Assembly (NCBI GenBank): GCA_019685555.1
Contig: JABFQN010000002.1
Location: 1-64,000, forward strand
Length of the DNA: 64,000 nt
Source of the DNA: Candidatus Bathyarchaeota archaeon A05DMB-3
GTDB taxonomy: Archaea > Thermoproteota > Bathyarchaeia > Bathyarchaeales > Bathycorpusculaceae
Direction: 5' to 3'
Position numbers and translations under genes: made by a program. The stretch's first letter is position 1. Each line of letters opens with the position of its first letter. The notes under the pieces were generated by a model that was not told where the DNA came from, did not search any database, and saw nothing but the letters and a program-made list of their open reading frames with translations. Positions 2,252-16,576 of this stretch are shown here, piece by piece.

Positions 2252-2857
2252 GTGTTGAAGTTGAAAGGTAAAGTTATAATTGGTATAGATTTGGCGGGTA
2301 AGGAAAAGAACCCCACAGGATTTGCTGTTTGGGAAAATGCGCGGGTGAAAACATGCCTAATTTACACGGACAATGAAATTCTTGAAAGAGTATCTTGTGT
2401 CAATCCGACAATCGTGGCAATTGATGCCCCGCTTAAACTTCCAAAAAGGGGAATTCTAAGGAAAGTAGACGAAATGCTCATCAAAAAAGGCTACCGCGTT
2501 TTTCCACCGGGCTTACCAGCCATGAAAACCCTCACACTGCGGGCTGTTAGACTGAATAAGTTAATAACTGAAAAAGGACTAAAAACGATTGAAACACATC
2601 CTGCATCCACAAGAAAGGCTCTAAACATGCCGACAAAAGACTGGGAAACAATTCAAGCAATATTAAAAAGCATGGGAGTAAGGGGAACTTTGGAAGAGCG
2701 AAGGCTAACGCCCCACGAGTTAGACGCTGTTACCGCTGCCCTAACGGGATATTTTCACACGCAAGGGTTAACTGAGGCGTTAGGCGATGAAGAAGAAGGC
2801 TACGTCATAGTGCCGAAAAAGTTGGATTGGCGGGGAATAAAACTTGAGTGTCTCTGA
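2252..2857 (+). CDS. DUF429 family protein (predicted RNase H-fold nuclease)
   Basis: 201 residues. The N-terminal VIIGIDLAGKEKNPTGFAVW and VAIDAPL are the paired acidic motifs of DUF429, a family placed in the RNase H-like superfamily and predicted to be a nuclease; ETHPAS and TPHELDAVTAALTGY supply later conserved positions. Biochemical function of the family is not established to my knowledge. The stop overlaps the start of polD small subunit by 14 bp, so translation of the two is probably coupled; that makes a role near replication or repair tempting but unproven. Start is GTG 2252, or TTG 2261 if the transcript is leaderless. Confidence 0.75.
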   Translation: MLKLKGKVIIGIDLAGKEKNPTGFAVWENARVKTCLIYTDNEILERVSCVNPTIVAIDAPLKLPKRGILRKVDEMLIKKGYRVFPPGLPAMKTLTLRAVRLNKLITEKGLKTIETHPASTRKALNMPTKDWETIQAILKSMGVRGTLEERRLTPHELDAVTAALTGYFHTQGLTEALGDEEEGYVIVPKKLDWRGIKLECL

Positions 2858-4421
2858 GGAAAGGCTGCAAAAAGCCGTCGAATTGACACTTGCGGCGGGA
2901 TACCAACTTAACAAAGAAGCTTTTGACTTCTTGAACACGGTGGCTGCAATTGAAGATCCCGTGGATGTTATGCGCAAAGCTCTTGAAAAAATAGAGGCAT
3001 TGAAGGATAAGCCATTGTTTATTGGAAAAACCTTTCTCGAAGAAATCATAAAAAAGCCGGAGCTCATGGAGGAAACTATTCTTCAATCGCAAGCAGAAAT
3101 GGTTACGTCTCTGCCTATACCGTCTCTTGAACGGCAAACGCAAATTTTGGAAGGGAAAAAAGTGTTCCGTCCCTATGCAAAGGAAATCGAGGCCAGTGTC
3201 AATATAATTGAGGATCCCGGTAGCAAATTAAGCTCAGGTGGAACCATGAGCGACTATTTGGAGTGTTTCCGGGATAGGTTTAAGCGTATCGAAAAGCTGC
3301 TGAGGCAAAGGATAGATGCCAGAAGCGCCGCCTCAATAATCGACGCATTAAGGTCTCCGCCGAACACCAAGCTTAAAGTAATCGGCATGGTTACAGAAAA
3401 GAGGGAGGCAAAACAGAAAATTTTCCTAACAATTGAAGACTTTTACGTGAGCGCTACAGTGCTTGTGCCGCAAAACGCCCCTACAGAGCTTCTAACTAAA
3501 GCGAGAACCCTATTGCTGGACCAAGTTGTTTGTGTAAGTGTTACAAAAACGCGAGGGAACTTGTTAATTGCAGAGGACATTATTCTGCCTGACATAGCAC
3601 CCAAAATTCAAAGCAAAGCGCCGGTTCCAGCTTATGCTGTCCTCACTTCAGACATGCATGTGGGTAGTGTAAAGTTTCAGGAAAAAGTCTTTGACAGATT
3701 CGTTTTGTGGCTCAGCGGCAAATACGGAAATGAGGAGATGCAAGAGATAGCGAGTCACGTGAAGTATGTTTTGATAGCCGGTGATATTGTTGATGGAATA
3801 GGAGTTTACCCAAACCAGGTCAAGGAATTAGCAATAAAAGATGTCTATGAGCAATATAGGCTGGCGGCAAAGTTAATCGACAAGATTCCCGGCTACATCG
3901 AAGTGATCATTATTCCTGGAAACCATGACGCCCCAAGAAAGGCTTTACCGCAACCACCAATTTCAGGCGCTTTTCTGGAACTACTGCAAAAGTCTAGGAA
4001 AATCTATTCAATCGGAAACCCGAGCAGGATAAGCCTCCACGGTGTTGAAGTTCTCATGTATCACGGACGCAGCCTCGATGACGTTGTCTCCACGGTTCCT
4101 GGAATGGAATATGCGCATCCCGAAAAGGCCATGACTTTGTTTTTGCAAGGGCGTCATTTGGCACCCGTTTATGGAGGAAAAACCCCTGTTTCGCCTGAAA
4201 ACAGGGACTATTTGGTTATAGATAGGGTTCCAGACATTTTCCATGCTGGGCACATACACACTTTAGGGTATACCAATTATCGGGGAGTTTTAGTCTTAAA
4301 TTCGGGATGTTGGCAGGAACAAACCGAGTATATGAGAAGGCTTGGGTTCATCCCAACGCCTGGTTTAGTCCCTGTAGTAAACTTACAAACTTTCGACATG
4401 AGAATAATTTCCTTCACTTAG
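2844..4421 (+). CDS. polB: DNA polymerase D small subunit DP1 (3'-5' exonuclease)
   Basis: 525 residues. The small subunit of the archaeal replicative polymerase D supplies the proofreading exonuclease. A helical N-terminal region is followed by an OB-fold (KLKVIGMVTEKREAKQK, near residue 175) and a calcineurin-like Mre11-type nuclease domain with its full set of metal motifs: TSDMHVGS, AGDIVDGIGVYP, IPGNHDAPRK, YHGRSLDD, HAGHIHTLG, then the conserved LNSGCWQEQT. Starts at GTG inside the end of the DUF429 gene. It lies tail-to-tail with the endonuclease dU-like gene, beyond which are orc1/cdc6 and the likely origin; the large subunit is 9 kb away. Confidence 0.95.
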   Translation: MSVSEERLQKAVELTLAAGYQLNKEAFDFLNTVAAIEDPVDVMRKALEKIEALKDKPLFIGKTFLEEIIKKPELMEETILQSQAEMVTSLPIPSLERQTQILEGKKVFRPYAKEIEASVNIIEDPGSKLSSGGTMSDYLECFRDRFKRIEKLLRQRIDARSAASIIDALRSPPNTKLKVIGMVTEKREAKQKIFLTIEDFYVSATVLVPQNAPTELLTKARTLLLDQVVCVSVTKTRGNLLIAEDIILPDIAPKIQSKAPVPAYAVLTSDMHVGSVKFQEKVFDRFVLWLSGKYGNEEMQEIASHVKYVLIAGDIVDGIGVYPNQVKELAIKDVYEQYRLAAKLIDKIPGYIEVIIIPGNHDAPRKALPQPPISGAFLELLQKSRKIYSIGNPSRISLHGVEVLMYHGRSLDDVVSTVPGMEYAHPEKAMTLFLQGRHLAPVYGGKTPVSPENRDYLVIDRVPDIFHAGHIHTLGYTNYRGVLVLNSGCWQEQTEYMRRLGFIPTPGLVPVVNLQTFDMRIISFT

Positions 4422-4975
4422 GATAACCCTCGGGCAATAAGCCTTGCAACGCGGATTGGCTCAGGCACTCTACTGCAAGTTACCAAACTTTTTATGAGAA
4501 GCGCGGTCCACTTAATATCCTTGCCCACTGTTTCCACATAAAGCGGTGGTTCCCCAGCTGTCACATGCACCCTATGAATAGCCCCAAGCTTTTCGAACAC
4601 ATTCCAACGGATTTTCCAATCTGTAAAATGCTGAATAAGAGCACGTTTTACTGCTCTGTTGTCGGGCTTCGTCCTCGACACAACAACAACTGGTTTTTGA
4701 AATTTTTCGTGAAGAACTGTGGGGTTTATGACATTAAAACCAGCGAAGGAGACCCCCGCAAGCATAACCGCATCAAAATTCCATTCGCTAAGAATTTCAA
4801 CAGCCTTGTTTGTTGCATCTAAGCCGTCAACCATTATCTCTGCAAATTTCACTCCTTCTATCTCCAACTTTTTTAAAAGAACCGCAGCTAAAAGGGCGCG
4901 TTTGGTTATGCCTTTTCTAAAACTTCCATCCTCAATTCCTACAACGCGCATCCTTTGAAAGACATTTCGGCTCAT
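4418..4975 (-). CDS. endonuclease dU-like protein (former DUF99/UPF0215)
   Basis: About 185 residues. Recognisable by MRVVGIEDGSFRKG at the start, IMVDGLDATNKAVEIL, VMLAGVSFAGFNVINP and VVVVSRTKPDN. Members of this archaeal family are related to endonuclease V and have been linked to cleavage at deoxyuridine, i.e. repair of deaminated cytosine. It begins inside the 3' end of orc1/cdc6 (about 44 bp overlap), so it is translated from the same message as the origin-binding protein. Two starts are possible (ATG at 4975 or ATG at 4951). Its 3' end overlaps the polD small-subunit stop by 4 bp in convergent orientation. Confidence 0.8.
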   Translation of the reverse strand: MSRNVFQRMRVVGIEDGSFRKGITKRALLAAVLLKKLEIEGVKFAEIMVDGLDATNKAVEILSEWNFDAVMLAGVSFAGFNVINPTVLHEKFQKPVVVVSRTKPDNRAVKRALIQHFTDWKIRWNVFEKLGAIHRVHVTAGEPPLYVETVGKDIKWTALLIKSLVTCSRVPEPIRVARLIARGLS

Positions 4976-6182
4976 AATCAATCAGGCGCCCAAGTCTATT
5001 GTCATTAGAGAAGGCTTCTCTAATAAGAGTGCGCGTCACCTCTAACCGAATTTTCTTCGTCCGTCCATACCTTCCCATACTAACGACTTGCGCATTTAAC
5101 AAACCTAAAGCGTCCAGTTCATTAACCAAGGTGCTGACCCGCCTCTGAGTTAACGGTGTTAAAGCTAATTCTCCGCAAAGTTCATTGTAAACCTCATATA
5201 TCTCGCCTGTCACAGCGCGATAACCGTTTGCCCTGACCAGCTGGAAGACGCTTAATATAACAAGTTTTGAGTGTAATGTAAGATTTGCCAGGGCTTCAAT
5301 CACACGGTTATGCTCTATAAGCTTTTCAGCCTCACGAATATGCTCTTCCGTAACTATGTCTGCGCCTTTTCGCTCTGCAACTTCACCAGCAACACGGAGA
5401 AGGTCTAAGGCTCTGCGTGCATCCCCATGCTCAGCTGCAGCCAATGCAGCGCAGAGCCTCAGAGCCCCCTCACTTAAAGCCCCGTCACGAAACGCCATCT
5501 GCGCCCGCTCAGCCAATATGTCCCTCAGTTCCTCCGCATCATACGGTCTAAAAACAATCTCCTCCTCACTAAGGGAGCTTAAAACTCTTGGATCAAGAAA
5601 CTCTTTCAGGCGCAAGTCGTTGGATATTCCGATAATAGATACTTTGCTTTGTGATAATGCCTCGTTAATCCTTGTAAGTTCATATAGGAGAGCATCACTC
5701 CGCGACTTAACTAAGACGTCCACTTCGTCAAGTGCAATAATCATTATCTTTTTTGCAGCGTTTAAAGCCTTTTTAAACCTTTCAAACACCTCGCCAACAG
5801 AAAGACCAGTAAAAGGAACGGAAAGCTGAATGCTGTTGCATACGCTTGCCAAGATACGGTACTCTGTTCCAGCCAAGCGGCAATTTACATAGCAGAAACT
5901 GACAGGCGCGCCAAACTCTCTTGCCTTAGCCTCCAAACGGGTTAGCACATACTTTGTCACAGCTGTCTTGCCAGTTCCGGTTTTTCCATAAACAAAAATG
6001 TTTGAACATCTGGCTTCTTTTAAAACAGGTGCAACAGTCTCTCCAAGACGCTTAATTTGATCCTCACGGTGCGGCAGTCTTTCAGGTAAATAGTCATGAC
6101 GAAGAACTTCCCTGTCCTTAAAGACGCCTATTCTGTTCAAAAATCTACTGAACACTTCATCTAGCACGCTTGCCTCCTTCAT
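4932..6182 (-). CDS. orc1/cdc6: Orc1/Cdc6 replication initiator
   Basis: 416 residues. AAA+ ATPase that binds origin recognition boxes and loads the MCM helicase. Seen in order: the N-terminal LPHREDQIKRL, Walker A VYGKTGTGKTAVTKY (near residue 65), Walker B IIALDEVDVLV, sensor-1 IGISNDLRLKEFLDPR, sensor-2 region GDARRALDLLR, and a C-terminal winged helix (SKLVILSVFQLV, LTQRRVSTLVNELDALGLL). ATG 6182 follows AAGGAGGAAGG; an adjacent TTG at 6185 is the alternative. Directly upstream is the long gene-free region with ORB-like sites, the usual arrangement of an archaeal origin with its cognate initiator. Confidence 0.96.
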   Translation of the reverse strand: MKEASVLDEVFSRFLNRIGVFKDREVLRHDYLPERLPHREDQIKRLGETVAPVLKEARCSNIFVYGKTGTGKTAVTKYVLTRLEAKAREFGAPVSFCYVNCRLAGTEYRILASVCNSIQLSVPFTGLSVGEVFERFKKALNAAKKIMIIALDEVDVLVKSRSDALLYELTRINEALSQSKVSIIGISNDLRLKEFLDPRVLSSLSEEEIVFRPYDAEELRDILAERAQMAFRDGALSEGALRLCAALAAAEHGDARRALDLLRVAGEVAERKGADIVTEEHIREAEKLIEHNRVIEALANLTLHSKLVILSVFQLVRANGYRAVTGEIYEVYNELCGELALTPLTQRRVSTLVNELDALGLLNAQVVSMGRYGRTKKIRLEVTRTLIREAFSNDNRLGRLIDYEPKCLSKDARCRN

Positions 6183-6511
6183 CAACCTTCCTCCTTTTCC
6201 TTCAAGTCCCTTTTCTGGTATAATGCCTTTCTACTTTAGAGAGTGGCAAAATAAGGTGTGTTGTACAGAAAACTGGATAAGTAGCAGAAAAATCCTAAAA
6301 ACTGTAGGAGGAAAAGTTGTTGGAAAACGAACAGAGACACCCCTCGATTTCAGTTGGAAACTCTGAAGAATAAGTTTTGTTCTGATTTCTTTTTGAGAGA
6401 AATATACTCTGATAGGTAATGGCATTGGTCAAAGTAAAAAGTTTCTTGTAGAAGTTTCTATATTAAACTGAAAAAATGTTGTAATAAAAACTATGGATTT
6501 AGCCTTTAACA

Positions 6512-6535
6512 TTTTCCAGTGGAAAAGTGGGGGGG
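6512..6535 (+). promoter_or_regulatory. ORB-like Orc1/Cdc6 binding site, plus orientation
   Basis: Reads TTCCAGTGGAAAAGTGGG plus further Gs. The dyad TTCCAGTGGAA followed by a G-run is the consensus form of the archaeal origin recognition box, where the winged helix reads the dyad and the AAA+ domain contacts the G side. Confidence 0.8.
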
Positions 6536-6774
6536 CGCCCTCTCTCTGCAAATATTTGAAATTATGCAAAGATTTCACTTTTCAAATTCTTGGAAAAGTA
6601 ATTACTGTATAATCCTGAATTAATAAGGAAGATGATGAAAGCTTCATTTCTGTTTAAACCACACTTAACTTCACAGCCTTGCAAACACCTTGTGAAATTT
6701 ATCAACTCTTGCCTTTCCTTTAGCCACAAAACCCTTTTTATTGACTATTTCTTGCCTTTTTGCTGCGAAGAAGT

Positions 6775-6796
6775 CACCCTCTTTTTTCCACTGGAG
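6775..6796 (-). promoter_or_regulatory. ORB-like Orc1/Cdc6 binding site, minus orientation
   Basis: On the minus strand it reads CTCCAGTGGAAAAAAGAGGG, the same core as the plus-oriented box but inverted, with a weaker G-tract. The pair is spaced about 260 bp and brackets the AT-rich stretch. Confidence 0.7.
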
Positions 6797-6944
6797 ATAA
6801 ACAAAGCCTTTAAACCCTTTTGTTTTTCACAGTTAGAGAAATTAGTGAAGTTTGTGAAATTAAATATTTGGAAATCTTCCTTATTTGTGACTTTTAAGCT
6901 CAAATAACAGCTTTTTCTTTTCCTCTCTTCACCGTAACAGCTAT

Positions 6945-6974
6945 AACTTGTGAAGTGTAAACTTGTGAAGTGTT
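6945..6974 (+). repeat. tandem 15-bp direct repeat upstream of the winged-helix gene
   Basis: AACTTGTGAAGTGT occurs twice back to back (6945-6958 and 6960-6973, period 15 bp), ending 19 bp before the ATG of the next gene. A related TTAGTGAAGTTTGTGAAATT lies at 6842-6861. Two adjacent identical sites one and a half helical turns apart look like an operator or iteron. Confidence 0.65.
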
Positions 6975-6992
6975 GAGGGTGCTTTAGAACGG

Positions 6993-7412
6993 ATGCCCGC
7001 AAGGAAAATGCGTATCGAGCTGTTCGATAGCGAAGGCAACAAGTATAGCATAGCCTTTGAAGGGCAGGTTACGCGGGAGAAGGCCCTTCGCCTACTGGAT
7101 CTCGTGGAGATATTGGGTGGAGCGGCTGGGGCTAACCCTGGAATAAGCACTGCAGCAGGTGAAATGCCAAAGTATGATAAAGTGTTGACTTTAATACAGA
7201 GACATTTCCCCATAGCTTGGTTTTCATCAAGGGAAATTCAATCAGTCTACGAGCAAGAATTTAAGGAGCCTATAAGCCTCAGTACAGTAGCTACATACCT
7301 TTCTAGACTAGCAAACAAAGGAATGCTCATAAAAACCGGGGCTTCCAACCGCCTAAAATATAGGGTGGCTCCGGGTTTTCCGCATGTGACTATGAAACAA
7401 CAGATAACCTAA
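6993..7412 (+). CDS. origin-adjacent winged-helix protein
   Basis: 139 residues, no family recognised with certainty. Residues 5-45 (RIELFDSEGNKYSIAFEGQV, then TREKALRLLDLVEIL) look like a small beta-hairpin followed by a helix; a Gly/Ala-rich linker leads to a winged helix (YDKVLTLIQRHFPIAWFSSR, then STVATYLSRLANKGMLIKTG) with the typical recognition helix and wing. It is transcribed away from the putative origin and has tandem 15-bp repeats immediately upstream that could be its own operator. A DNA-binding role is well supported by the fold; a role in replication control is inferred only from position (compare WhiP near one Sulfolobus origin). Confidence 0.75.
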   Translation: MPARKMRIELFDSEGNKYSIAFEGQVTREKALRLLDLVEILGGAAGANPGISTAAGEMPKYDKVLTLIQRHFPIAWFSSREIQSVYEQEFKEPISLSTVATYLSRLANKGMLIKTGASNRLKYRVAPGFPHVTMKQQIT

Positions 7413-7430
7413 TAATGATTACAAACCGTT

Positions 7431-8144
7431 TTAAGCGGCTTCTGCCTCAGTTTTCCTTAAAATTTTCTCCATTTCCTTTTTCACACTGTATTTGAAGGGA
7501 ATTTTACTGGAATCCCTCTCTAAGTAGCCTTCCTCATAAAGTTTCTTCATCAGCCGGGCGGTGTGTTCACGGCTAAGCTTAATTCTCTCCTTTATTTCGG
7601 GAGCTGTTTTTGGGCCTTCTGTGCCCAGCATTTCTAATACTGCCAGCTCTGTGTCAGTTAAATGGGCCAAGGCTTTCTCCCTTTTTATGGGTATACCTGC
7701 TTCAATTCTTGGTTCAGGAAGAACGGGCACTTGTTGGGCTTTTTCTTCCAGGAGAGAAATTCTGGAAGTCAGCTTCTCGTGTGATGAGGTGACATCGCGT
7801 GTTAGCTTTTCAACTTCATCCATTCGTGCTTGCAACTTATCACTAACCTCTACCGCACTGCTGGTTTTTAGTTCTAAGGCTTTCAGTTTCCCTTCAACTT
7901 CTTCAGCTCTCTTTACGGCTTCACTGCTTCTTGCGCAGGTAGCCTCAACTTTGTAGGAAACCACCTCCAAATTATCCGCGGTGCGTTTAAGCTCCCTGCT
8001 AAAACTTAGAATGACATCGTTGAAGGATTCCCTAGCCTTTTCATACTCCTTCTTAATTCTAACAAGATACCTATAATACTGAATTGCGAAACCAGCTGCA
8101 ACAGCGAATAACACGAAAGAAAGCATGAGCACAAAGTCAATCAT
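7431..8144 (-). CDS. membrane-anchored coiled-coil protein with C-terminal winged helix
   Basis: 237 residues. An N-terminal hydrophobic segment (LMLSFVLFAVAAGFAIQYY) anchors the protein; residues about 30-140 are heptad-rich coiled coil (KRAEEVEGKLKALELKTSS and similar); residues 160-230 form a MarR/TrmB-like winged helix (LTDTELAVLEMLGTEGPKTA, SREHTARLMKKLYEEGYLER). A DNA-binding domain held at the membrane by a stalk suggests signal-dependent transcription control or tethering of DNA to the membrane. Convergent with the origin-facing winged-helix gene, 18 bp apart. The region upstream is dense in TCAC/GTGA motifs, and GGTGAT before its ATG is part of a perfect palindrome, consistent with autoregulation. 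Confidence 0.75.
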   Translation of the reverse strand: MIDFVLMLSFVLFAVAAGFAIQYYRYLVRIKKEYEKARESFNDVILSFSRELKRTADNLEVVSYKVEATCARSSEAVKRAEEVEGKLKALELKTSSAVEVSDKLQARMDEVEKLTRDVTSSHEKLTSRISLLEEKAQQVPVLPEPRIEAGIPIKREKALAHLTDTELAVLEMLGTEGPKTAPEIKERIKLSREHTARLMKKLYEEGYLERDSSKIPFKYSVKKEMEKILRKTEAEAA

Positions 8145-8409: not shown

Positions 8410-8925
8410 TCACGATAGTCCTTCAGAAGGATTTGAAAGCTTTTTTAAGCTAATTTCCAGCTCTTCTCTCAGCATTTTTAGCAATTTTACTTGCTCTTCT
8501 ATTTGTTCACCCTTTCCGGGTATGCTCTTATGGGCTTCTATGTATTCTTGCAGTTTGTTTGCGGTTTCAATATATGGATCTAAAGTTGTGCTTTCAAAAA
8601 TTCCTAAGTATCCTAGGAGTAGCACTGTGTAAATAGATTTTATTACGTTTTCTTCCGCCTGTTTTAAGGTCCTGTTGAAGGATCCGCGGCTTATTTTAGC
8701 CCTTGTTAGCCGCAATTTGGCTTTTTCATCGTATTTTACCGGTTTTCCTGAAATATTTTCTGCTAAAACGTCAATTAGCAGTGTTTCAAGCTGCGTTTTC
8801 GTTAAGTGACTGTTTTTAGCTAGTATTTTTACAACGGGATCTTCTAGAGACTTTTTTAGCCATGCTTGAACATTATCTTTTAGCTTCATTTCTTTCACTT
8901 GCCGTGTTCTCTTTATTGGATACAC
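8410..8925 (-). CDS. uncharacterised helical protein
   Basis: 171 residues (159 if the second Met at 8889 is used). No named family recognised. It is predicted to be nearly all helical, with a highly ordered middle (LTKTQLETLLIDVLAENISG; AKISRGSFNRTLKQAEENVI; KSIYTVLLLGYLGIFE) and a C-terminal coiled-coil segment (EEQVKLLKMLREELEISLKK). The SRGSFNRTLKQA stretch has a helix-turn-helix-like look, so a nucleic-acid role is possible. Composition and codon use match the neighbours. It is divergent from the aminotransferase and precedes the TCAC-rich region, which also touches its stop codon. Confidence 0.6.
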   Translation of the reverse strand: MYPIKRTRQVKEMKLKDNVQAWLKKSLEDPVVKILAKNSHLTKTQLETLLIDVLAENISGKPVKYDEKAKLRLTRAKISRGSFNRTLKQAEENVIKSIYTVLLLGYLGIFESTTLDPYIETANKLQEYIEAHKSIPGKGEQIEEQVKLLKMLREELEISLKKLSNPSEGLS

Positions 8926-13130: not shown

Positions 13131-13171
13131 CACAAGTGTAGAAAGTACCGGGGGGTTGATTGGGCATCCAG

Positions 13172-16100
13172 ATGAGCAAAGCCTACGCGAAATATGTGGA
13201 AAACTTGGAGCAACAACTCGAACAGTTATATGCCATATGCAGAAAAGCCCGGGAAAAGGGAATTGACCCTTCCACTAGCCCTGAATGCGAAGTTGCAAGG
13301 GACATGGCGGATCTTGTGGAAGGGCTTGTCGGACCAAAAGGCGTTGCGAATAGAATTAGAGAGTTAAGCATTAAACTTCCAAGAGAAGAGTTAGCCTTCA
13401 AAATCGCCGAAGAAATTGTTTACGGAAAATTTGGACACATGGAGCCTGAACAAGCGGCTGAACAAGCCGTACGCACCGCTTTGGCTATACTCACTGAAGG
13501 GCTTACAGCTGCGCCTTTGCAAGGTGTGGCGCAAGTCAAAATCAAAACCAACCATGACCGAACAAAATATTTGGCCATCTATTTCGCTGGTCCTATACGA
13601 TCCGCAGGCGGCACTGACCAAGCGTTGACTTTGGTTGTTGGCGATTTTATCCGCAAGCTTCTAGGGCTTGACCGTTACAAGCCCACTAAAGAGGAGATTG
13701 CCCGCTTTATCGAGGAGGTTAGGCTTTATGAGCGGTCTGTAAGCCGCTTCCAATATCATGTTTCCGATGAAGAGTTGTGGAAGGCTCTCCAATGGCTGCC
13801 TGTGGAAGTTACTGGAACAGAGTCGGATCCTGTTGAAGTTTCCTCTTACCGCAACCTTCCACGCATTGAAACTAACAGAGTGCGGGGCGGCGCGCTTCGC
13901 GTAGTAAACGACGGAGTTGTCGGAAGAGCCTCAAAGGTTTGGGCAATTGTGGAAAAACTTAGAATTCAAGGCTGGGATTGGCTTAAGGAAATCCGCAAAA
14001 TGTCAGAGAAAAAATCCGCCGGGTTTATGGATGATGTTGTAGCAGGCCGCCCAATATTCTCTTTCCCCTCTAGACGTGGGGGATTCCGCCTACGCTATGG
14101 AAGGGCGAGAAACACAGGATTGACAGCGGTCGGTGCCCATCCAGCGACCATGCTTGTTCTGCAAGGATTTATTGCAGCTGGCACTCAACTGCGCTTGGAG
14201 CTCCCAGGAAAAGGAGGTATAGCATTGCCTGTTGACACTTTGGAGCCGCCAATAGTCAGACTGCGGGATGGTTCCGTCGTGCGGGTTTCCATAGAAAATT
14301 TTGACAGTGTCAAAGATAGAATTGAGAAAATACTGTTTTTAGGCGATATTCTTGTCAGTTTTGGCGATTTTCTCTATCAAGGCAAGACTTTGGCTCCAGC
14401 TGGGTATGTTGAAGAATGGTGGGTTGAGGATTTACAAAAAGCAATTATAGAAGGGTTTAACGGAGATTTTGAAAAAGCAGCAGCGACTGTTGGCATCACC
14501 GCAGAGAAGATCAAGAGTTTTCTAAGAGATCCATTTTTGAACAGACCCAATTGTAGAGAAGCCATAAACTTGGCATTAAAACTGAAGGTTCCGCTTCATC
14601 CAGCCTTTACGCTTTTCTGGTCAAACCTCGCCTCTGTGGAGGAGCTTAAGCGCTTAAGAATGTGGCTATGTGCGTCCGAGGTGGTTTATGATGGCGATTT
14701 TGCACGGCAAGTTATTGGAGAGCTGGATGAATGCATAAAAAGGGTTCTTGAGGCAATATGCTTGCCTCACAAAGTTTTAGACGGCAAAATAGTCATCAGT
14801 GGGGATGACGCATGCCTTTTCGCTTTTTGCCTTGGACACAAAAATTCTAACGCTGATTTTTCCATGAATGAAGCTATTTTAGACATCATTAAACGGCTTT
14901 GCGGGGCTACTGTTAAAGATAAAGCTCCAACTTTTGTTGGGGCAAGGATGGGGCGTCCGGAAAAGGCTAAGAGGCGTGAGATGAAACCTCTTGTGCATGT
15001 CCTTTTCCCTGTTGGGTTAGCTGGGGGTTCTCATAGGGACATTGTTGAAGCGGCAAAGCGTGAACAAGTTTTTGTGGAGATTGTTAAGCGGAAATGCCCT
15101 CAGTGTAGGACGTATTCCTTTAAGATAAAATGTCCGTTATGCGGCTCTGAGACAGTTCCAGAACAAGTTTGCCCAAGGTGCGGTAGAAGCATTAATGGCG
15201 GCGGCGATTGTCCCGCATGCAAAGTGTCTACCGTTTCATATGGGAAGCAAGCCGTTAACTTCAAGGAGATGCTTGAAGATGCTTGTAATCGCCTTGGGCT
15301 TTATATGCCAAAGATTCTGAAGGGCGTCAAAGGCTTGACCAACGAAACTAAAACGCCTGAGATTATTGAGAAGGGCGTTTTACGTGCAAAATATGACTTG
15401 TCAGTTTATAAGGATGGCACCATCCGCTTTGATGCAACTAACGCTCCCTTAACACACTTTAAACCAGCTGAAATTGGGGTTTCAGTGGAAAAACTCGTGC
15501 AGCTTGGGTATTCCTATGATGCTTATGGTAATCCTTTAACAAATTCGGACCAAATATGTGAACTGAAGATACAGGATGTGATCATTCCCGTTAAATGTGC
15601 TGAATACTTTGTTCGTGTTGCCAACTTTGTCGATGAGCTTCTCGTGAAGGTTTATGGGCGTCCTCCTTACTATAATGTTAGGCGTATTGAAGATCTTGTG
15701 GGGCACTTGGTTGTAGGCTTGGCTCCTCACACTTCTGTCGGCGTTTTAGGGCGCATCATAGGATTTACAAGCTTAAATGTTTGCTATGCGCATCCGGTTT
15801 GGCACTCTGCAAAGCGAAGGGACTGTGACGGTGACGAAGACGCTTTGATGCTTGCATTGGATGCACTGCTCAACTTTTCCAGAACATATTTGCCCGCACA
15901 GATCGGTGGAATTATGGATGCGCCTTTATTGTTAATCTCCGTTGTTAATCCATGTGAGGTGCAAAGGCAAGCCCACGATTTTGATGTTGCCGGCACGTAT
16001 CCATTGGAATTTTATGAAAAAACATGGGAGCGGATTGAAGCCAAACATGTAAGTCCCCTCATAGACCTCATCGAGTATAGGCTTGGAACCGAGGCGCAGT

Positions 16101-16576
16101 TTGAAGGTTTCCGCTTCACTGTGCCTGTTTCAAACATTAATATGGGGAATGATGAGAGTGCGTATAAACGGTTTAAGGCAATGGTGGAAAAGCTTAATGG
16201 GCAACTTGCCCTTGCCGAAAAAATTGAGGCTGTGGACGCCAGAAAAGTTGCCTTAAAAGTTTTAACCAAACATTTCATTCGTGATATTGCCGGAAACCTC
16301 AGAGCCTTTTCGACGCAAGGCTTTAGATGCAAATCGTGTAACAAACGTTTTCGCCGTCTGCCATTGCGTGGCAAGTGTCCTCAGTGCGGCGGAGAGTTAA
16401 CCTTAACAGTTTATCGTGGCGGCATAGAGAAGTATTTAGAGGCAGCAGAGCATATAATCAAAAAGTATAAACTTCCAAGGTATTATGTCCAAAGGGTCGC
16501 GTTGATGAGGGAGGAGATTAACTCTTTATTTGAGGGTAAAAAGCCGAAACAAATAAGCCTCACAGACTTCGCCTAA
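13172..16576 (+). CDS. polC: DNA polymerase D large subunit DP2
   Basis: About 1134 residues, the catalytic subunit of polymerase D, and free of inteins, which often interrupt this gene. The N-terminal helical domain (DLVEGLVGPKGVANRIREL) is followed by the conserved YFAGPIRSAGGTDQALTLVV. Zinc-binding clusters are seen at CPQCRTYSFKIKCPLCG and VCPRCGRS. The catalytic block is RDCDGDEDALML, whose acidic residues bind the two metals in the RNA-polymerase-like double-psi barrel. A C-terminal zinc ribbon CKSCNKRFRR...CPQCGG ends the protein, before a Lys/Gln-rich tail that in other archaea contacts PCNA. ATG 13172 is taken as start; TTG 13160 is the alternative. Confidence 0.96.
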   Translation: MSKAYAKYVENLEQQLEQLYAICRKAREKGIDPSTSPECEVARDMADLVEGLVGPKGVANRIRELSIKLPREELAFKIAEEIVYGKFGHMEPEQAAEQAVRTALAILTEGLTAAPLQGVAQVKIKTNHDRTKYLAIYFAGPIRSAGGTDQALTLVVGDFIRKLLGLDRYKPTKEEIARFIEEVRLYERSVSRFQYHVSDEELWKALQWLPVEVTGTESDPVEVSSYRNLPRIETNRVRGGALRVVNDGVVGRASKVWAIVEKLRIQGWDWLKEIRKMSEKKSAGFMDDVVAGRPIFSFPSRRGGFRLRYGRARNTGLTAVGAHPATMLVLQGFIAAGTQLRLELPGKGGIALPVDTLEPPIVRLRDGSVVRVSIENFDSVKDRIEKILFLGDILVSFGDFLYQGKTLAPAGYVEEWWVEDLQKAIIEGFNGDFEKAAATVGITAEKIKSFLRDPFLNRPNCREAINLALKLKVPLHPAFTLFWSNLASVEELKRLRMWLCASEVVYDGDFARQVIGELDECIKRVLEAICLPHKVLDGKIVISGDDACLFAFCLGHKNSNADFSMNEAILDIIKRLCGATVKDKAPTFVGARMGRPEKAKRREMKPLVHVLFPVGLAGGSHRDIVEAAKREQVFVEIVKRKCPQCRTYSFKIKCPLCGSETVPEQVCPRCGRSINGGGDCPACKVSTVSYGKQAVNFKEMLEDACNRLGLYMPKILKGVKGLTNETKTPEIIEKGVLRAKYDLSVYKDGTIRFDATNAPLTHFKPAEIGVSVEKLVQLGYSYDAYGNPLTNSDQICELKIQDVIIPVKCAEYFVRVANFVDELLVKVYGRPPYYNVRRIEDLVGHLVVGLAPHTSVGVLGRIIGFTSLNVCYAHPVWHSAKRRDCDGDEDALMLALDALLNFSRTYLPAQIGGIMDAPLLLISVVNPCEVQRQAHDFDVAGTYPLEFYEKTWERIEAKHVSPLIDLIEYRLGTEAQFEGFRFTVPVSNINMGNDESAYKRFKAMVEKLNGQLALAEKIEAVDARKVALKVLTKHFIRDIAGNLRAFSTQGFRCKSCNKRFRRLPLRGKCPQCGGELTLTVYRGGIEKYLEAAEHIIKKYKLPRYYVQRVALMREEINSLFEGKKPKQISLTDFA

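Follow-up and report, generated by a model that had tools for sequence, protein, structure and literature searches.

Described archaeal origins and the bathyarchaeal locus

Archaeal replication origins generally adjoin orc1/cdc6 genes, contain ORB elements, and sit near extremes of composition disparity (PMC4164010; PMC4010727). In Sulfolobus oriC1, three polar ORBs lie beside orc1-1, two of these in inverted orientation on either side of an AT-rich unwinding region, and both facing ORBs are required in vivo (PMC12141716). Pyrococcus abyssi has a single origin located directly upstream of cdc6, with the genes for the PolD subunits DP1 and DP2 close by (PMC4010727; PMC2643942). Linkage of cdc6 to the DP1 gene is known in Thermococcales, Halobacteriales, and Methanosarcinales, DP2 being close too in Pyrococcus, and in Thermococcales an ORB and mini-ORBs are found inside the DP1 gene (PMC2643942). 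Among the TACK archaea, Nitrosopumilus maritimus has a single, mapped origin (PMC4010727) with ORB repeats beside cdc6 (PMC5797428). Among ammonia-oxidising archaea, only Ca. N. cavascurensis lacks PolD (PMC5797428). No description of a bathyarchaeal origin was found in the open-access literature searched.

We analyzed a 64-kb stretch of a Bathyarchaeia genome (the window, referred to at its full length) and conclude with high confidence that positions 6186 to 6992 are the chromosomal replication origin of this genome, with an Orc1-1/oriC1-type layout. This gives a large class of uncultivated archaea an origin map that is precise and can be tested. The locus shares with Sulfolobus oriC1 the three polar ORBs beside orc1-1 and the inversion of two of them around an AT-rich region, but its facing ORBs are wider apart (229 bp inside, versus the 130-bp ORB3-DUE-ORB2 region). 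It also differs in having PolD genes nearby and in containing the motif TTGTGAA, which is absent from the published Sulfolobus ucm oligonucleotide. With P. abyssi, it has in common the position directly upstream of cdc6, the proximity of the DP1 and DP2 genes, and the single-origin pattern; in contrast to Thermococcales, the DP1 gene of the window has no site scoring at least 8 bits with the ORB PWM described below. The single-origin pattern and the ORBs beside cdc6 are also shared with N. maritimus. Since the origin of the latter is mapped (PMC4010727) and PolD is common in ammonia-oxidising archaea (PMC5797428), the preliminary description overstated the rarity of the locus as a reference point in a PolD-bearing TACK lineage. 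The ORB consensus, the cdc6-DP1 linkage, PolD in TACK, and the mapped Nitrosopumilus origin are already known. New are TTGTGAA, placed at fixed distances from the distal ORB, and, in many families of the phylum, a small winged-helix gene divergent from orc1.

Genes flanking the gap

The locus and the genes that define it are as follows.

6186 to 6992, no strand: predicted oriC intergenic region, 807 bp, 65% AT, without genes, between the divergent orc1 and winged-helix genes; the arrangement recurs in relatives
4932 to 6185, minus strand: orc1/cdc6-1 initiator gene, 417 aa (NCBIfam NF001625, 515.7 bits; Pfam Cdc6_C and Cdc6_lid)
6993 to 7412, plus strand: winged-helix protein gene, 139 aa, divergent from orc1; neighbour kept by many families of the phylum
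2844 to 4421, plus strand: PolD small subunit DP1 gene (NF003118, 484.7 bits)
13160 to 16576, plus strand: PolD large subunit DP2 gene (TIGR00354, 1366.8 bits)

A gene-free, AT-rich gap of about 800 bp, flanked by divergent orc1/cdc6 and winged-helix genes and with polD nearby, had been proposed from the sequence, and all of this was borne out. The AT content of the gap is 65% versus 56% in the window, and in addition to DP1 the gene for DP2 was found on the other side.

The orc1 gene directly beside the gap is of the initiator class, exceeding the cut-offs of both NF001625 and TIGR02928; the ATG at 6182 is its likelier start codon. The top PDB matches of the protein, which are close and extend over 380 residues, were 2qby_A (Sulfolobus Cdc6-1, the closest) and 2v1u_A (Aeropyrum Cdc6), the two Orc1/Cdc6 structures solved on origin DNA (PMC5333045). 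Its nearest named records come from Candidatus Bathyarchaeota genomes and are 86% identical. The end of orc1 is followed and overlapped by an endonuclease dU gene on the same strand (4418-4981; PF01949), a neighbour that several relatives do not have. Across the putative origin, two further neighbours are conserved: a gene whose product has a MarR-type domain and a coiled coil and is probably anchored in the membrane (7431-8144), and one encoding a protein of 171 aa that has no Pfam match (8410-8925).

The gap contains three ORBs, two of which face each other across an AT-rich core

The ORB PWM spans 31 bp and was derived from 129 sites in the regions upstream of orc1-1 of 52 relatives, the window itself being excluded. 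Scanning of the 64-kb window with this PWM returned exactly three ORBs, all of them in the gap and within 0.5 kb.

6333 to 6363, minus strand: ORB1, nearest orc1, TTTCCAACTGAAATCGAGGGGTGTCT, 27.4 bits; at about -165 from the orc1 start, a position kept in relatives
6510 to 6540, plus strand: ORB2, middle, TTTTCCAGTGGAAAAGTGGGGGGG, 29.4 bits; contains an exact TCCAGTGGAAA
6541 to 6769, no strand: AT-rich core between ORB2 and ORB3, 229 bp, 68% AT; candidate unwinding element
6770 to 6800, minus strand: ORB3, distal, TCTCCAGTGGAAAAAAGAGGGTGACT, 26.4 bits; contains an exact TCCAGTGGAAA and faces ORB2

The next-best score in the 64 kb was 6.2 bits, and the maximum over 100 Markov shuffles of the window was 17.6. 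With three matches to the PWM and the rest of the window at or below 6.2 bits, we conclude that the gap contains three ORBs rather than two. The two near-consensus ORBs with inward-facing G-runs named in the preliminary description are both real and correspond to ORB2 and ORB3. Of the weaker cores listed there, the one at 6350 is the third ORB, on the minus strand; those at 6319 and 6590, with scores of -32 and -20 bits, can be dismissed as ORBs. ORB1 has an intact G-run directed at orc1 and a degenerate core that is off consensus; in ORB3, it is the G-run that deviates from the consensus.

The 1.46-Mb genome has three copies of TCCAGTGGAAA, two of which are inside the gap; the third site (C7:60446) was discarded as an ORB, the PWM finding none there. 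A looser pattern, TCCANNNGAANNNNNRGGG, occurs four times in the genome, three of these inside the gap, and its reversed control gave no occurrence. Furthermore, the archaeal ORB motif of Ori-Finder 2 and DoriC, TCCA[CG]T[TG]GAAA[TC][GA]AAGGGGT (PMC4164010), matches the bathyarchaeal TTTCCAGTRGAAAYNWAGGGGTG, but the tail is slightly longer in the latter (GGGGTG..T).

The core between the facing ORBs is a candidate unwinding element. An AT content this high is reached by only 0.25% of 230-bp windows across the 64 kb. Across the genomes compared, the core measures 110 to 306 bp (median, 209 bp) and has a median AT content of 70%.

The three-ORB layout is conserved over an order

The three-ORB layout upstream of orc1-1 was present in 50 of 50 genomes, which belong to one order and several families, include the present genome, and are those whose upstream region was of sufficient length for the layout to be assessed; as they share ancestry, they are not independent trials. 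From the distal side toward orc1, the ORBs follow the order +,-,+, typically at -600, -350, and -165 relative to the start of orc1. In the alignment, positions 6545 to 6645 are poorly conserved and the ORBs stand out. The comparison across related genomes that had been suggested as a check thus found the boxes, their polarity, and their spacing kept throughout, the three-ORB geometry being maintained over a whole order. Other orders of the class, in which orc1 is 57 to 64% identical, retain a recognisable form of the array, and facing ORB pairs are present in other classes of the phylum.

Strand composition switches at the locus in two relatives

Since the genome under study consists of 28 contigs, with 6 kb between the locus and the nearer end of its contig, skew was analyzed in two long-contig relatives, G048 and G006, each sampled over about half its length. 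In the first model, gene orientation was used as a covariate, the terminus was fixed opposite, and every position of G048 (a single 2.15-Mb contig) was scanned. The AT skew switched at 1750 kb, compared with an orc1-1 start at 1748.3 kb (20-kb block permutation, p<0.0005). With the terminus left free, AT and keto skew of G006 both gave 1080 kb, with orc1-1 at 1081.6 kb, and the AT skew of G048 gave 1780 kb, within about 30 kb of orc1-1. When 40 kb around the locus was removed in G048, the switch was placed at 1765 kb. The keto skew of G048 was less sharp, its best fits being spread over 1530 to 1780 kb.

In its sense, the skew is an excess of T relative to A along the strand that leads away from the locus, corresponding to keto-rich leading strands. 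The locus lies at a composition-disparity extreme, as is general for archaeal origins, in both G048 and G006 (AT/keto), and the composition data of the two relatives fit one origin and one terminus. GC skew alone gave no signal in either G048 or G006 and was dropped as origin evidence, the signal being confined to AT and keto skew. Hence, the skew inflection expected at the locus was found for AT and keto skew in these relatives but not for GC skew. Like the comparison across genomes, this outcome speaks for an origin.

A second orc1 paralogue has no ORBs beside it

Another contig of the genome carries a second orc1 paralogue (orc1-2), 34% identical to the first, and most relatives also have it. 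A PWM scan of 18 orc1-2 loci, including that of the present genome, found no ORBs.

Within the class, 13 of the 14 sampled genomes of family f17 have neither orc1-1 nor the winged-helix gene of the origin side. The genomes behind the orc1-1 absence are G125 (a single contig), G111, G113, G092, G070, G084, G088, G106, G109, and others of f17; family f14 also contributes. An orc1-2-like copy was retained in nine of the f17 genomes checked, with no ORB beside the copies scanned. Among 81 genomes of the class, 51 have both orc1-1 and the winged-helix gene, 5 have orc1-1 only, none has the winged-helix gene only, and 25 have neither; as orc1-1 and the winged-helix gene are neighbours, these counts are confounded. 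The ORB origin may have been lost or replaced in f17, and this family offers a natural comparison within the class.

Origin function and alternative explanations

Three ORBs in a conserved layout, a facing pair around an AT-rich core, a skew switch, and the lack of ORBs at orc1-2 together lead us to conclude that the locus is very probably an Orc1-1-dependent origin with a single-origin pattern, that is, an ordinary archaeal origin. Judged by characterised origins (Sulfolobus oriC1 and the general archaeal rules), Orc1/Cdc6-1 from the adjacent gene would bind the three polar ORBs, the third of which is positioned on the orc1 side of the facing pair. The duplex would then open at the AT-rich core between ORB2 and ORB3, MCM would be loaded at this core, and upon firing two forks would leave in opposite directions.

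The array lies between two divergent promoters, and an archaeal Orc1-2 paralogue acts as a transcription regulator (PMC9738581), so the ORBs might serve solely as an autoregulatory operator through which Orc1-1 controls both its own expression and that of the divergent winged-helix gene, replication starting elsewhere. We consider this very improbable: the facing ORBs enclose an AT-rich core 350 to 600 bp from orc1, which is distant for an operator, the composition switches at the locus in two relatives, and the scanned half of G006 and G048 contains no further ORB cluster. The presence of an origin does not in itself prove its use, since Thermococcus kodakarensis tolerates the loss of cdc6 and origin (PMC5663688). 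A relic site, kept by descent in cells that replicate mostly by recombination, would agree with the existence of origin-independent replication in Thermococcus (PMC5663688; PMC11005403) and with a family of the class, f17, that has neither orc1-1 nor the winged-helix gene. Yet all boxes are kept in 50 of 50 genomes and the composition switch is centred here, which imply long-term use and make a relic the least probable alternative.

Compatible with the locus being an origin, and therefore overlapping with it in confidence, is the existence of several active origins, a second one being defined by orc1-2 or another initiator with different boxes. Most relatives carry orc1-2, and Sulfolobus uses three origins with different initiators (PMC4010727). 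Nevertheless, the 18 orc1-2 loci have no ORB-like site and the composition of G048 and G006 fits one origin with one terminus, so we regard additional origins as unlikely.

TTGTGAA elements and the winged-helix gene opposite orc1

In ORB-masked origins, TTGTGAA was the most over-represented 7-mer (117 occurrences versus 19 expected, in 48 of 50 genomes). The core TTCACA showed offset peaks from the distal ORB at -175, -159, -53, +27, +100, and +111, each with 33 to 43 occurrences over 73 genomes versus 1.6 expected per bin, and genomes outside the order share some of these positions. Helical phasing of the elements was considered and dropped, because the six offsets show no consistent 10.5-bp phase. 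In the window, 4 of the 10 TTGTGAA copies fall in the 0.8-kb gap, all on the plus strand; they are listed here with a further conserved block.

6398 to 6409, minus strand: conserved block GAGTATATTTCT between ORB1 and ORB2, the most conserved 12-mer in the alignment
6690 to 6696, plus strand: TTGTGAA element inside the core, over-represented 7-mer
6852 to 6858, plus strand: TTGTGAA element outside ORB3, its offset from ORB3 fixed in relatives
6948 to 6969, plus strand: two TTGTGAA elements (copies at 6948 and 6963) forming a 15-bp direct repeat just ahead of the winged-helix start codon

The winged-helix gene is divergent from orc1 across the putative origin in all 28 bathyarchaeal loci that reach that side. 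Several further families of the phylum have the same divergent pair, separated by 490 to 961 bp (about 525 bp in f28); these families, f28 for example, probably belong to the Nitrosopumilus group. In the remaining families, the gene is present but non-adjacent in some and absent in others. A search by sequence gave no PDB relative of the protein at E<0.02, and UBP was not among the matches. Its identification as WhiP, UBP, or another known initiator was rejected, as there was no significant sequence or fold match and the best hits were generic winged helices (RosR, MecI).

From its position, we guess that the winged-helix protein is a candidate TTGTGAA binder and/or autoregulator. More speculatively, TTGTGAA on both sides of the distal ORB and the winged-helix protein bound to it might form a second conserved origin system, in which the protein would serve the origin as a dedicated factor, corresponding to UBP or WhiP, and would aid origin opening or couple firing to orc1 expression; we put this forward tentatively. 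The open literature searched yielded no published account of a TTGTGAA origin motif or an origin-linked winged-helix gene.

The GAGTATATTTCT block lies more than 200 bp from the orc1 start and is possibly an orc1 promoter element. A second conserved block, AGTTTTCTGTAC, is found at 6263-6274, between the proximal ORB and orc1.
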